Position numbers and translations under genes: made by a program. The notes below the pieces were generated by a model. The model made no database searches. It was given only the letters and a program-made list of their open reading frames with translations, and was not told the origin of the DNA. 32,611 nt of DNA, taken from Chitinophagales bacterium (GTDB taxonomy: Bacteria; Bacteroidota; Bacteroidia; Chitinophagales; Chitinophagaceae). The first letter of the stretch is position 1. The number at the start of each line of letters is the position of its first letter. Positions 12,567 through 16,829 of the stretch are shown here, piece after piece. Location of the stretch: NCBI GenBank assembly GCA_015655435.1, contig JAATFC010000292.1:1-32611 (forward strand), in the 5' to 3' direction.

Positions 12567-15425
12567 ATGGCAAAAAAAATGCAGGCAGCAACTCCAGATA
12601 TAGCGGAAGTAATCGAAATCATCGGCGCACGAGAACATAATCTAAAAGACATATCTCTCAACATACCCAAAAACAAACTCGTTGTCTTTACGGGAGTGAG
12701 TGGCAGCGGCAAATCGTCGTTGGCATTTGATACGATTTACAACGAGGGACAGCGTCGGTACATGGAGAGTTTCAGTGCCTATGCACGTCAGTTCATGGGC
12801 GATATGGAACGTCCGGACGTGGACAAGATTTCGGGATTGAGCCCTGTCATCTCCATCGAACAAAAAACAACCAACAAAAATCCACGTTCGACTGTCGGGA
12901 CGATTACGGAGATATACGATTTTCTGCGTTTGCTGTTTGCACGTATTGGCGAAGCGTATAGTTACAATACGGGTAAAAAAATGGTGAAATTCAGCGAAGA
13001 GGAAATCTTACAAAACGTATTTGAAAAATATGAAGGCGAAAAGATAAATGTATTGGCGCCGTTGGTTCGTGGACGAAAAGGCCATTATCGTGAACTGTTT
13101 GAAGATATTCGCAAAAAAGGTTTTCTGAAAGTGCGCGTGGATGGAGAGGTGAAAGACATCTCACCCAAAATGCGACTCGACCGCTACAAAATCCACGATA
13201 TTGAAGTCGTCATTGACCGCCTGCAAGTAACGGAAGACATGCGCGTGCGGTTAAGTCAAAGCATCCAACAGGCTTTGAAAATGGGCAATGACTTGGTATT
13301 TTTCCTGTTACAGGATTCGGGTAAATTAGTACAATATTCCAAACAACTGGTCTGTCAAGATACGGGTATTAGTTACGAAGAACCTTCTCCCAATTCGTTT
13401 TCGTTCAATTCGCCCTATGGAGCATGTTCACATTGTAAGGGTTTGGGTTCCGTGTATAGTATTGATCTGGAAGCGGTGATTCCCGACCGTTCGGTTTCTA
13501 TTGAAGATGGCGGTATTGCGCCACTGGGTGCGGAACGTGATGCGGGAATATTCCAACAAGTGAAACGTATTGCGAAAAAAAACGGTATCTCGCTCGACAA
13601 ACCGCTGTCTGAAATCCCACAGGAGAAAATCAATATTCTTCTTTTTGGCGACACAAATGCCAATACGGATTTGGAAATCGACATGGACGAGATTGTGACG
13701 GGCAATATGCACGGACAACCGTTTGAAGGTGTCATCCCGATGTTAAAACGATGGTTTTCCTCACAGGACAGTTCCAATTTTGTCAAAGAATGGGTGGAAA
13801 AATTCATGGAGCTCAGCACCTGCCCGACTTGTGACGGACAACGTTTACGCAAAGAAAGTCTTTGGTTTAAAATAGATGAAAAGAACATTGCAGAACTCAG
13901 CAATCTAGATTTGACCAAACTTGAAAAATGGTTTACCAATATTGAAAAAAGGCTTTCGAACAAACAAAATATTATTGCAAAAGACATATTGAAAGAAATC
14001 CGCGACAGGCTGGGATTCTTACTGAACGTGGGTTTAACGTACTTGACATTGAATCGTCCAACTAGAAGTCTTAGTGGTGGTGAAAGCCAACGCATTCGGC
14101 TTGCGACACAGATTGGTTCGCAACTACAGGGTATCACGTATATATTGGACGAACCTAGTATTGGACTGCATCAGCGTGACAATATGCGGTTGATAAAGGC
14201 ATTGGAAAATCTGCGCGACATCGGCAACAGTATATTGGTCGTGGAGCACGATAAAGACATTATGTTGGCGTCTGACTATCTGGTGGATATCGGTACGGGA
14301 GCTGGAAGGCTTGGCGGGGCTATCGTTGCGCAAGGTTCGCCAAAGGAAATCATGCAGGCAAAATCCGAAACTGCAGCTTATCTCAATGGTAAAAAAATGA
14401 TTGCCGTTCCGGCGAAACGCAGAAAAGGAAACGGTAATTTTATCGAAATAAAAGGAGCTGTGGGCAACAATCTGCAAAAAGTAAATGCTAAGTTTCCTTT
14501 GGGACAATTGATAGTTGTTTCTGGCGTAAGCGGTAGTGGCAAATCGACGTTGATAAACGAAACGCTTTATCCTATTTTGTCCCAATACTGCTATAAATCC
14601 CGTACCAAACCGATGCCTTATCAAAGTGTTTCCGGATTGGAAAACATTGATAAAGTAATCGACATTGACCAATCACCAATAGGGCGCACGCCGAGAAGTA
14701 ATCCTGCTACGTATTGTGGTTTTTTCACGGATATACGCACACTTTTCGCCGCCATTCCGGAAGCTAAAATAAGAGGTTATAGTGCCGGACGTTTTTCATT
14801 CAACGTCAAGGGTGGACGTTGTGATATGTGCGAGGGTGCAGGCATCCGAGTCATCGAAATGAACTTCTTACCCGACGTGCATGTTCCCTGCGAAAAATGC
14901 AACGGTCGTCGTTACAACCGCGAAACGTTGGAAATCCGCTATAAAGGCAAGTCCATCAGCGATATACTGGACATGACGGTGGACGAGGCGATTGATTTTT
15001 TCCAACCAGTTCCGTCCTTGTATCGTAGGATTAAAGTATTGCAGGATGTAGGTTTGGGTTATATTACTTTGGGACAGTCGGCCGTAACGCTGAGTGGTGG
15101 AGAAGCTCAGCGTGTCAAGCTCTCCACGGAACTAGGCAAAAGAGATACCGGACGAACTTTTTACATATTGGACGAACCAACGACCGGCCTACATTTCAAG
15201 GATATACAGTTGTTGCTGAATGTGGTGAACAAACTGGTTGACCGTGGGAATACCGTTCTGATTATTGAGCACAATATGGATGTAATCAAAGTGGCGGATA
15301 CGGTCATCGACCTCGGTCCGGAAGGTGGTAGCGGTGGTGGTAAAATACTATTCTCAGGAACACCAGAGCAGATGGTCAAAACTCAGGATGGTCCGACTGC
15401 CCAGTTTTTGAAATTGGAGTTGTAA
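12567..15425 (+). CDS. uvrA: UvrABC system protein A (excinuclease ATPase)
   Basis: A 952-residue, full-length UvrA, the damage-recognition ATPase of nucleotide excision repair that loads UvrB. Two ABC modules: Walker A GVSGSGKSS (43-51) and GVSGSGKST (~653-661); signatures LSGGESQR and LSGGEAQR; Walker B ILDEP in both halves. Zinc-binding Cys pairs are visible at C287/C290 with C419/C422, and at C752/C755 with C775/C778 (CEKC). The UvrB-binding and insertion regions are in place. Transcribed alone. An imperfect -7-like TAACTTGC (12552-12559) precedes the ATG by 7 bases, which would imply a very short leader. A 13-bp perfect inverted repeat follows the stop by 22 bases. Confidence 0.97.
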   Translation: MAKKMQAATPDIAEVIEIIGAREHNLKDISLNIPKNKLVVFTGVSGSGKSSLAFDTIYNEGQRRYMESFSAYARQFMGDMERPDVDKISGLSPVISIEQKTTNKNPRSTVGTITEIYDFLRLLFARIGEAYSYNTGKKMVKFSEEEILQNVFEKYEGEKINVLAPLVRGRKGHYRELFEDIRKKGFLKVRVDGEVKDISPKMRLDRYKIHDIEVVIDRLQVTEDMRVRLSQSIQQALKMGNDLVFFLLQDSGKLVQYSKQLVCQDTGISYEEPSPNSFSFNSPYGACSHCKGLGSVYSIDLEAVIPDRSVSIEDGGIAPLGAERDAGIFQQVKRIAKKNGISLDKPLSEIPQEKINILLFGDTNANTDLEIDMDEIVTGNMHGQPFEGVIPMLKRWFSSQDSSNFVKEWVEKFMELSTCPTCDGQRLRKESLWFKIDEKNIAELSNLDLTKLEKWFTNIEKRLSNKQNIIAKDILKEIRDRLGFLLNVGLTYLTLNRPTRSLSGGESQRIRLATQIGSQLQGITYILDEPSIGLHQRDNMRLIKALENLRDIGNSILVVEHDKDIMLASDYLVDIGTGAGRLGGAIVAQGSPKEIMQAKSETAAYLNGKKMIAVPAKRRKGNGNFIEIKGAVGNNLQKVNAKFPLGQLIVVSGVSGSGKSTLINETLYPILSQYCYKSRTKPMPYQSVSGLENIDKVIDIDQSPIGRTPRSNPATYCGFFTDIRTLFAAIPEAKIRGYSAGRFSFNVKGGRCDMCEGAGIRVIEMNFLPDVHVPCEKCNGRRYNRETLEIRYKGKSISDILDMTVDEAIDFFQPVPSLYRRIKVLQDVGLGYITLGQSAVTLSGGEAQRVKLSTELGKRDTGRTFYILDEPTTGLHFKDIQLLLNVVNKLVDRGNTVLIIEHNMDVIKVADTVIDLGPEGGSGGGKILFSGTPEQMVKTQDGPTAQFLKLEL

Positions 15426-15447
15426 AAGGTGAGCATTATTGGTAAAA

Positions 15448-15489
15448 ATGCAGACTATCTTAAGACATTTATGACGAGATAGTCTGCAT
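15448..15489. terminator. 13-bp perfect inverted repeat downstream of uvrA
   Basis: ATGCAGACTATCT (15448-15460) pairs perfectly with AGATAGTCTGCAT (15477-15489) across a 16-base loop, 22 bases after the uvrA stop. It may form a transcript-end hairpin, but no T tract follows, so classical intrinsic termination is uncertain. Confidence 0.45.
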
Positions 15490-15494
15490 GGGTT

Positions 15495-15517
15495 TCAAAC
15501 TACGGATCAAACTACGG
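15495..15517. repeat. Tandem 11-mer TCAAACTACGG x2
   Basis: Two identical copies of TCAAACTACGG (15495-15505 and 15507-15517) are separated by one base. A 7-bp inverted pair GCTGGAT/ATCCAGC (15517-15523, 15545-15551) follows immediately. Meaning unknown. Confidence 0.6.
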
Positions 15518-15565
15518 CTGGATGCTTTTTCAATTCCGACTTTAATCCAGCATTTTGCCAATACA

Positions 15566-15584
15566 ATGTTAGCGGTAGTGCTTT
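15566..15584 (+). repeat. Left arm of 19-bp inverted repeat around an orphan gene
   Basis: ATGTTAGCGGTAGTGCTTT matches the reverse complement of 16010-16028 with a single mismatch (G/A). Together the arms enclose a 463-bp unit holding the AT-rich orphan gene 15599-15943. The base composition and position suggest a mobile unit or cassette boundary; no clear target duplication is visible outside the arms. Confidence 0.65.
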
Positions 15585-15598
15585 TTATATATTGTTTT

Positions 15599-15943
15599 TT
15601 AATGATATTTTTCTAAAAGTATAATTGGAGTTTGGATTTCTCCGATCCATTCACTTGCTAAATATCCGTAATGATTTTTAAATTCTTCCAATTCAATTTT
15701 ATCAGGATTGTCAATTATCTTATTTTGGGGTTCGGTTTTCCAAAATTCATAACAATTATATACCTCAATCCATTTTAACTTTTCTCCAATATTTGCAACA
15801 ACAAACTCAACGGGATATTTTTTCAGAATTTCTTGGATTTCTTTTTGATTTAGTGTTTTAGTCTTTTTTGCATAAATTTCTTCAGAATCATTCCATAAAT
15901 TTTTGATTGGAATTTCAGTCACAATTTTACTTGAATAATCCAC
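15599..15943 (-). CDS. Small hypothetical protein, AT-rich orphan gene
   Basis: I do not recognise this 114-residue protein. It is acidic and aromatic-rich, with no signal peptide or membrane helix, and is probably a small soluble alpha/beta protein. It begins at GTG (15941-15943); a TAA stop lies two codons upstream in frame and the protein contains no internal Met, so this is the only reasonable start. The DNA is AT-rich (31 G/C in 120 bases sampled at 15661-15780). The gene is enclosed by a 19-bp inverted repeat (15566-15584/16010-16028), and a hairpin lies in its presumed leader. Size and isolation would fit a small immunity or defence-type accessory gene, but nothing in the sequence proves that. 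Confidence 0.6.
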   Translation of the reverse strand: MDYSSKIVTEIPIKNLWNDSEEIYAKKTKTLNQKEIQEILKKYPVEFVVANIGEKLKWIEVYNCYEFWKTEPQNKIIDNPDKIELEEFKNHYGYLASEWIGEIQTPIILLEKYH

Positions 15944-15969
15944 GACTTATTTTGATAATTTAAATTTTC

Positions 15970-15993
15970 AATCGATTTTGTTTAAAATCGATT
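15970..15993 (-). promoter_or_regulatory. Perfect 10-bp hairpin upstream of the orphan gene
   Basis: AATCGATTTT and AAAATCGATT pair perfectly across a GTTT loop. On the minus strand it lies 26 bases before the GTG start of the orphan gene and next to motif copy B, so it may be a leader hairpin or part of the recombination or mobility site. Confidence 0.45.
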
Positions 15994-15996
15994 TTG

Positions 15997-16026
15997 AGGT
16001 TTGTTAGTTAAAGCATTACCGCTAAC
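15997..16026 (-). repeat. Orphan-gene-associated motif, copy B
   Basis: Read on the minus strand: GTTAGC, 12 bases, ACTAACAAACCT. It shares the first six and last twelve bases with copy A at 5604-5632. Its GTTAGCGGTAATGCTTT part is also the right arm of the inverted repeat around the orphan gene. Confidence 0.65.
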
Positions 16027-16028
16027 AT
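16010..16028 (-). repeat. Right arm of 19-bp inverted repeat
   Basis: Reverse complement ATGTTAGCGGTAATGCTTT pairs with the left arm at 15566-15584, 18 of 19 bases. It overlaps motif copy B. Confidence 0.65.
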
Positions 16029-16221
16029 TATTATTGACGCAATATACTGATTTTAACCAATTTTTAAAATATTATCACAATGTATTGAAAGTCAAATATA
16101 TATGGTAATACAAAGAAGATGCGCATAAAGTATAATATTTTGTGTATTAGCGTATATAATACAAAAAACGCATTCTATCATTATAATCACAAACCCCAAA
16201 TATCATCTAAAAACTATTGCC

Positions 16222-16229
16222 TACCTTTG
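16222..16229 (+). promoter_or_regulatory. -7 box of the def promoter
   Basis: TACCTTTG is an exact match to TAnnTTTG and lies 24 bases before the ATG of def. The -33 region is not well matched. Confidence 0.55.
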
Positions 16230-16253
16230 CACTCCGAATAAAGAATTTTAGAT

Positions 16254-16829
16254 ATGATTTTATCAATAGTGGGTTACGGTTCGAATGTATTGAGGGAAAA
16301 ATGTGTGGATATTGACAAGAATTACGCTGATTTACCCAAACTGATTGCCGATATGTGGGAAACATTGTATGCCAGCAACGGCGTGGGTTTGGCAGCTCCG
16401 CAGATTGATCGGAATATTCGTTTGTTTATAGTGGACAGTGCGCAGATTTTTGAACATGCGGAGGATGGTGATGAAACTTACCCTGACAAACCGGGATTTA
16501 AAAAAGTATTCATAAACGCTCACATAGTCGAAAAGAAAGGAGATGAATGGCCTTACCAAGAAGGCTGTCTGAGTATTCCTGGAATCCGCGAAGACATTAT
16601 GCGCCCGGAAGAGGTGACGATTGAGTATATGGATGAAAATTTCCAAAAACATAAGGATACGTTTAATGGCATCACGGCCCGAATCATCCAACACGAATAC
16701 GATCATATTGAGGGAAAACTTTTCATTGATTACCTCAAACCTCTGAAACGCAAACTGATGGGACGCAAGCTGGACAATATTATGAAAGGGCAGGTCAAAG
16801 TGGACTATAAAATGAAATTTGCCAAATAA
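16254..16829 (+). CDS. def: Peptide deformylase
   Basis: Removes the N-formyl group from nascent proteins, a metal-dependent (usually Fe2+) cytosolic hydrolase. All three family motifs are present: GVGLAAPQ (43-50), EGCLS with metal ligand C105, and H147-E148-Y-D-H151. 191 residues, within the normal range. An acidic insertion (AEDGDETYPDKPGF) lies around residues 69-82. Start at the ATG 16254, 24 bases after a TAnnTTTG box. Transcribed from its own promoter just right of the orphan-gene unit. Confidence 0.96.
   Translation: MILSIVGYGSNVLREKCVDIDKNYADLPKLIADMWETLYASNGVGLAAPQIDRNIRLFIVDSAQIFEHAEDGDETYPDKPGFKKVFINAHIVEKKGDEWPYQEGCLSIPGIREDIMRPEEVTIEYMDENFQKHKDTFNGITARIIQHEYDHIEGKLFIDYLKPLKRKLMGRKLDNIMKGQVKVDYKMKFAK

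Follow-up and report, generated by a model that had tools for sequence, protein, structure and literature searches.

The gene that lies between uvrA and def in the stretch of DNA analysed here (the window; 32,611 nt, the whole of contig C202 of G000, a MAG of 3.23 Mb in 387 contigs that is 82% complete) is very probably one cassette, carrying a single gene, of a Bacteroidota system for site-specific recombination that resembles integrons. The 20-nt inverted repeat that surrounds this gene represents the complementary ends of one integron-like cassette and not the ends of a transposon and, judging from sequence comparisons, the gene is in all likelihood a movable cassette seated at a docking site that recurs elsewhere in G000. 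The names of the flanking genes, uvrA (12567-15425, + strand) and def (16254-16829, + strand), are those of an earlier note made from the sequence alone. The features of the interval are the following.

15448-15489, + strand: 13-bp perfect hairpin, an inverted repeat just after uvrA and outside the cassette; likely a terminator
15513-15567, - strand: putative attC of 55 nt, between the cassette-end AAC and the GTT at 15512-15510, with a GCTGGAT/ATCCAGC stem; its 3' half looks degenerate
15565-15584, - strand: left arm, forming the R''-like 3' end of the cassette and complementary to its start, with G at position 11 of the reverse complement
15599-15943, - strand: cargo gene of 114 aa with a GTG start, from the ORF list
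15970-15993, - strand: 10-bp perfect hairpin AATCGATTTT-GTTT-AAAATCGATT in the leader of the cargo gene
16010-16029, - strand: right arm, the cassette 5' end (R'-like), GTTAGCGGTAATGCTTT; the crossover would fall between G 16026 and T 16025
16023-16043, - strand: attI-like core ATTGCGTCAATAATAATG^TTA, an exact match to the core pattern and in register with other leaders
about 16027-16165, - strand: attI-like leader, repeated in G000 beside other cassette starts according to sequence matches and alignment
16143-16163, no strand assigned: dyad TGTATTA-N7-TAATACA in the leader, partly kept in the leader alignment; possibly a recombinase binding site
16222-16229, + strand: TACCTTTG, read from the sequence as the probable -7 element of the def promoter, intact beside the leader, as the Bacteroidota promoter consensus would suggest

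The two arms are complementary at 19 of 20 positions (95%) and lie 425 nt apart, and none of 1000 dinucleotide shuffles of positions 15426-16253 produced an inverted repeat of 20 nt with one mismatch or fewer. Short repeats arise easily in AT-rich intergenic DNA, so that a chance inverted repeat around an ordinary orphan gene might be considered; given the outcome of the shuffles and the recurrence of the pattern, with the same mismatch, at many cassettes, there is next to no probability left for it. The earlier note had described a 463-bp unit in which a 19-bp inverted repeat with one mismatch enclosed a single 114-codon GTG-started gene and a 10-bp perfect hairpin in its leader. The repeat is real but measures 20 nt, the mismatch is present but is a recurrent feature of the cassette class and not decay, and both the gene and the hairpin were found as described; the GTG start is further supported by an ATG seen by eye at the corresponding place in the homologues from G123 and G201. 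The size of the unit needs correction, as the functional unit is larger and adds the putative 55-nt attC (15513-15567) and the leader (about 16027-16165). Of the two identities that had been offered, the recombination cassette is retained; the non-autonomous mobile element, if by this a transposon bounded by terminal repeats is meant, is abandoned. The note also saw no reason for uvrA and def to be split by such a unit. These two genes do flank it, but their pairing is not a conserved one: the C-terminus of uvrA was not found near def in 29 other def loci of the family (flanks of about 1.5 kb, in some cases truncated where the contig ended), and uvrA was not found beside def in G001, a genome of the same genus as the window. 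For this reason, a comparison of the uvrA-def interval across relatives, which the earlier note had proposed in search of an interval without the unit, offers no usable edge. A direct repeat of CAAACTACGG with a spacing of 12 was observed at 15496-15517, at the border between the distal attC end and the uvrA side, and may be the trace of an earlier junction.

On the minus strand, the cassette of the window reads TTAGCGGTAATGCTTT...gene...AAAGCACTACCGCTAAC, continuing as ATTGTATTGGCAAAATGCTGGATT. When its ends are paired from 15568 and 16026, bases 1-10 match at all ten positions, base 11 is A/G, and the next three bases match again. Beyond its two places in the window, the full 17-nt arm has no further copy in G000, as expected if the arms are specific to each cassette, and a search of G000 that allowed up to three mismatches stayed at control level (19 matches including both arms, against 17 in the control). 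The arrays of G001 display the same anatomy in series. There, the genes are co-directional; GTT and a few further bases stand before each gene, the reverse complement of these bases stands behind it, and the order runs from the cassette end through about 122 nt of palindromic DNA to the next GTT. Each cassette start consists of GTTR and six or seven cassette-specific bases that are complementary to its own far end, and base 11 is usually a fixed mismatch, with A at the start and C at the end (A·C on the top strand and G·T on the bottom strand).

The co-variation of the ends was examined in 14 segments of G001 that were delimited by attC-like sequence alone (14 attCs of 121-124 nt). In these, a start agreed with its own end at 6.2 of 9 variable bases on average, against 3.9 between starts and ends of different segments, and none of 20000 permutations reached this agreement; the segmentation merged some neighbouring cassettes, which lowers the own-match mean and works against the result. 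Between 300 and 360 kb of G001, 13 of the 20 exact ten-base GTT/AAC pairs (150-3000 bp apart) carried A/G at base 11, and all 13 had a purine at base 4, which was not required there. Cassettes with A/G at base 11 are also present in contigs C77 and C214 of G000 and, with further differences, in C298. Stretches next to the recombinase genes of relatives contained a convincing A/G pair in 8 cases out of 20 (G009, G025, G035, G029, G005, G043, G048, and G054); several of the remaining stretches are very short, and the one A/G pair in the recombinase stretch of G001 itself is probably due to chance. To enter a larger set of 74 cassettes, from which G000 was left out, a pair of ends had to agree exactly over bases 1-10, have a purine as base 4, and show the A/G combination at base 11; among overlapping candidates the shorter span was kept. 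Because a purine was required in the selection, conservation of base 4 in these 74 cassettes is no independent result. Bases 12 and 13, which lay outside the selection, matched in 71 and 73 of the 74. The gene pointed in the array direction in 69 of 71 cassettes (longest ORFs of at least 50 aa), and the median cassette length was 690 bp. When 17 sequences of G000, namely the window and 16 further stretches, were scanned strictly, 6 of 27 pairs were A/G or G/A, and three of these 6 were accepted. A relaxed scan of the same sequences yielded 10 candidate A/G pairs, of which four were accepted (C202, C77, C298, and C214), and alone proves nothing because the A/T combination gave 7. For chains of cassettes, a reversed-sequence control was uninformative, probably because reversed attC stems form inverted repeats themselves; permutation of ends, the distribution of base-11 combinations, and upstream stretches served as controls instead.

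A search for other units sharing the arms, as the earlier note had proposed, was successful. Arms of the type GTTAGCGGTA(A/G) surround one unit each in C77 of G000 (760 bp), G009 (939 bp), and Flavobacterium enshiense (476 bp), and two units in the G001 array (515 and 553 bp); among these, a cargo was identified for the 515-bp G001 unit only, namely a member of the SUKH family. These comparisons bear on the possibility that the unit is a non-autonomous, MITE-like transposon whose terminal inverted repeats enclose a passenger gene. Such an element would likewise present a 20-nt inverted repeat pair around one gene with no transposase inside, but the arms vary between units while matching within each unit, both the A/G mismatch and the leader on one side only are seen repeatedly, the exact arm lacks a second copy in G000, and no target-site duplication is visible beside the arms of the window when the flanks are read by eye. 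A MITE-like origin is therefore considered very unlikely, and the transposon reading was rejected on the flanks without duplication, the cassette-specific arms, and the one-sided leader.

The putative attC sites fold into imperfect hairpins with a strand bias, as canonical integron attCs do. All of 24 circularised attCs had a negative fold z (median -5.79 against mononucleotide shuffles), and in 20 of them the bottom (G·T) strand was the more stable one. Their lengths fall into 53-55 nt (four sites), 111-186 nt (19 sites), and 360 nt (one site). Once circularised, the attC of the window has a folding energy of -19.5 kcal/mol; its 55 nt are comparable with the 53-55-nt attCs at L187 and L190, and window positions 15542-15578 resemble the attC at C77:5571-5608 (85% over 38 nt, E 0.0079). 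The terminal attC of the window is probably degenerate, since its distal half offers no partner for TTGGC, and the cargo gene may now be fixed at the uvrA-def locus. Structural imperfections of attC sites are described as marking the strand in integrons (PMC8946536), and by analogy the base-11 mismatch may do the same here. Gene-less hairpins of about 50 nt were also noticed inside attC regions of G001, near 312.06 and 328.7 kb.

A related leader is located directly before the cassette start at several loci. Window positions 16022-16162 match C142:925-1061 (74%, E 4.2e-16), and positions 16007-16055 match C298:13466-13513 (88%, E 4.6e-9). The leader directly precedes a cassette start in the window, C142, C298, and C77, and a related leader precedes two chromosomal arrays of G001; in C142 only the cassette start is present and no matching far end was found. 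The core pattern of the leader occurs at five places in G000 (two in the reversed control) and at three in G001 (one in the reversed control). In genomes other than these two it is no more frequent than in the reversed control, for which reason the leader sequence is regarded as lineage-specific and the core pattern as informative in the genus of the window only. The fifth match in G000 (C282:28427; L289, about 1501-1680) is followed by nested palindromes, GTTAGAGCGCAA...TTGCGCTCTAAC, with no evident gene. The third leader of G001 stands with one cassette on a plasmid-like contig of 30,333 bp (G001:C2:11229-11930, L290), the ORFs of which, as judged by eye, include ParA, a replication initiator-like protein, and a mobilisation-like protein; the family recombinase of G001 described below was found on C1 only and not on this plasmid-like contig.

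The two chromosomal leaders of G001 suggest where the insertion point lies. A gapless comparison gives 95 identical positions out of 101 as far as the junction, 21 out of 59 beyond it, where different cassettes begin, and 57 out of 100 in the stretch preceding this 101-position block. The junction is a clean edge on the cassette side, at a locus other than uvrA-def, and the crossover point is placed at G^TT because leader identity ends there. Inside the leader of the window, a stretch at 16118-16139 (+ strand), GATGCGCATAAAGTATAATATT, resembles dif sequence. Such a likeness would fit a pdif module of the Xer/dif type, mobilised by XerC and XerD, and G000 does encode two recombinases of Xer level. 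Yet not every other leader has kept the dif-like stretch, the ends are cassette-specific where a pdif module would have a constant 28-bp site, and a dedicated recombinase adjoins the arrays elsewhere, all of which make a pdif module very unlikely.

This recombinase was traced among 59 relatives with a profile built from an alignment of eleven sequences. Family members scoring above 300 bits were found in 24 of the 59 genomes and presumed XerC/XerD proteins scored at most 182 bits; the limits of the family are slightly blurred by intermediate matches of 190-255 bits, which are second copies or partial genes (G021, G009, G047, G012, and G045). The 82%-complete G000 yielded no family recombinase, its two matches (159 and 131 bits) being at the level of presumed XerC/XerD. 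G001 encodes one, at 525 bits, which stands alone and far from its arrays. Many of the 59 relatives encode a protein that matches both ends of the TIGR02249 model and not its middle. Downstream of several such genes, the leader and the cassette start can be read directly, and in G009 the first cassette behind the recombinase begins with GTTAGCGGTAA, which is the arm of the window itself.

Linkage between recombinase and cassettes was also apparent in a scan of named genomes, for which the best 80 of 591 confirmed recombinase loci were used. Up to 9 kb downstream of these 80 (397,410 bp), 46 of 63 exact pairs were A/G; upstream of them, in more DNA (536,756 bp), 3 of 24 pairs were A/G and 6 of 24 were G/A. 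Where at least 1 kb of downstream sequence was available among the best 80, an A/G cassette was present at 20 of 31 Bacteroidota loci and at 1 of 32 loci from other phyla, with phylum taken as given in the record titles; the other 11 Bacteroidota loci had no A/G cassette. The single exception outside Bacteroidota (L230) is in a Spirochaetota MAG, JARKUF010000008, and could reflect transfer or misbinning. For 18 of the 80 loci, a first cassette was detected within 450 bp of the recombinase match, at distances of 44-378 bp. Cassette-bearing loci among the best 80 included those of Flavobacterium enshiense, F. aciduliphilum, Algoriphagus ornithinivorans, Winogradskyella ursingii, Seonamhaeicola aphaedonensis, Algibacter onchidii, and a Rufibacter. 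The named relatives of the recombinase family suggest that G000, too, belongs to Bacteroidota. A total of 140 plasmid records matched the recombinase, three of which were examined for cassettes. Plasmid 1 of Rufibacter tibetensis carries the recombinase followed by seven small genes and a thioredoxin-family gene in the same direction, with two A/G cassettes; the plasmids of Chryseobacterium oryzae and Flagellimonas marinaquae had no A/G cassette behind the recombinase.

The array-linked enzyme is distinct from integron integrases. From the box I arginine to the box II motif it spans 88-94 residues in 25 array-linked recombinases, compared to 131 in the IntI proteins of G052, L251, and L255, and is thus about 40 residues shorter in this region. 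The closest solved structures to one member are the XerC-like 4a8e of P. abyssi (130.7 bits) and IntI4, 2a3v (109.7 bits), and three array-linked recombinases score 202-225 bits against NF040815 (cut-off 220). In three recombinases scanned with Pfam, the SAM-like domain starts at residue 82-87, which indicates an extra N-terminal stretch. A quick tree of 86 rows, with several very long branches and two reference rows (one of them, L149, probably in the wrong frame), placed IntI (L037, L251, and L255) apart from the array-linked rows with a support of 100 and did not resolve the array-linked recombinases as one clade. TIGR02249 itself exceeded its cut-off in 1 of the 59 relatives, namely G052, a genome of the same order in which it detects a true integron integrase (L037, G052:C40:3592-4530, 422-428 bits), and in neither G000 nor G001.

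These data address the possibility that the unit is a canonical integron cassette stranded without its integrase, as a single-attC or CALIN-type remnant of an IntI integron. The layout is the same, with an attI-like leader, co-directional single-gene cassettes, a palindromic attC, and a bottom-strand bias, and a genome of the same order (G052) does encode true IntI. However, the canonical attC core is given as GTTRRRY/RYYYAAC (PMC7370490) and the window end is GTTAGCG, with GTTRRRY fitting only 7 of the 74 related cassettes; likewise, the array-linked enzyme is the shorter one that stands apart from IntI in the quick tree, and TIGR02249 points to G052 alone. The IntI-specific additional domain is named as the defining trait of an integron integrase (PMC9668308). 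The canonical integron was accordingly rejected as a candidate, its layout fitting and its defining enzyme domain and R' motif not, and a stranded canonical cassette is judged unlikely.

The cargo of the window offers few clues to function. Its protein belongs to no Pfam, NCBIfam, or PADLOC family, had no plasmid match at E 0.01, no PDB match better than E 1, and a best PHROG match at E 0.16, and its predicted structure (pLDDT 45) was not usable. Among the 59 genomes, which include G000, the sole other homologue (45% identity) lies inside a cassette array of G001. A wider search of 394 genomes of the family returned matches in six, namely G000, G001, G123, G201, G100 (partial), and G326 (weak); no clear cassette ends were seen by eye near the gene in the stretches read from G123, G201, G100, and G326. 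This sporadic spread fits transfer, but a single homologue, that of G001, supports the cassette reading. Ten cassette proteins of G001 comprised Macro, TIR, two SUKH (SMI1/KNR4), DUF1877, DUF2695, a sub-threshold Muted, and three without a family; from the TIR and SUKH families, we presume defence or immunity roles for some of the cargo. The TIR-domain and macro-domain genes of the G001 array are at L034:14152-15009 and L034:10352-10882, respectively. Rfam detected nothing in the window and only one tRNA in the 40 kb containing the G001 array.

Taken as a single cassette of an integron-like system, the unit suggests the following mechanism. A cassette (TTAGCGGTAATGC...gene...GCACTACCGCTAAC and a short attC hairpin) would have been inserted through recombination of its folded attC, probably as a single strand, with the attI-like leader, which precedes def and is oriented away from it. 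In the circular cassette, the arms would adjoin the attC stem and lengthen it by about 17 bp. The single mismatch in this extension, G·T in one strand and A·C in the other, would distinguish the strand that takes part in recombination. The array-linked recombinase is the probable agent of cassette movement and would be an IntI/XerA-like tyrosine recombinase without the integron-specific insertion, the gene for which lies, in many relatives, directly upstream of leader and array. For the genus of the window, we infer action in trans on several dispersed leaders, because no family recombinase was found in the 82%-complete G000; G000 presumably has, or had, such an enzyme. More broadly, it seems reasonably likely that these loci belong to a widespread second class of Bacteroidota integrons, left out by current definitions, that would lack the IntI insertion, carry hairpin ends co-varying from cassette to cassette and a G·T-marked strand, and in some genera operate with one recombinase acting in trans on several dispersed attI platforms, a plasmid included, such that a housekeeping locus beside a leader could turn into a cassette port.

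Should the system work as its anatomy suggests, a reservoir of cassettes (macro-domain, TIR, and SUKH-type genes and many orphan genes) has been overlooked, integron-like recombination needs no IntI-specific domain, and it becomes directly testable what single-strand cassette recombination requires of the enzyme and of the hairpin. Integrons have already been reported from Bacteroidota. IntegronFinder 2.0 names a single complete Bacteroidetes integron, in Salinibacter ruber, following earlier finds of integrase-only In0 elements; integrases without recognised attC sites would be expected if the attCs of the Bacteroidota cassette class go unrecognised. At least one earlier survey selected integrases by the IntI insertion, which is missing here (PMC2426708). 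A CAT-domain insertion is elsewhere stated to be incompletely conserved in an integron-like subgroup of tyrosine recombinases (PMC8138268), and relatives of the array-linked enzyme may therefore have been grouped there. In the open-access literature, to which the search extended and which leaves most subscription papers outside its scope, no title or abstract opening described such Bacteroidota arrays.

Compared to known systems, the one described here is very likely an integron variant, distinct in its recombinase and in the rules of its sites. As in a sedentary chromosomal integron, its leader offers a fixed point of insertion, its cassettes mostly hold one gene each and point the same way, its attCs are imperfect palindromes, GTT stands at the crossover, and its cargo comprises orphan genes and some that are defence- or immunity-like. 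Unlike an integron, the Bacteroidota cassettes end in GTTR and co-varying bases instead of GTTRRRY and have a recurrent base-11 mismatch, their recombinase, which has no IntI insertion, is encoded upstream of the array and runs in its direction, and the genus of the window has several leaders per genome with no adjacent recombinase. The cassettes of G000 and G001 resemble CALINs in having no adjacent integrase, and differ from them in that the loci examined (the leader of C214 aside) have an attI-like leader of their own and in that their attCs are not of the canonical type. The recombinase, finally, is akin to the simple XerA/XerC-like tyrosine recombinases, among which are its nearest solved relative and which its NF040815-range scores recall, and is set apart from them by the extra N-terminal stretch before the SAM-like domain and by its linkage to cassette arrays.
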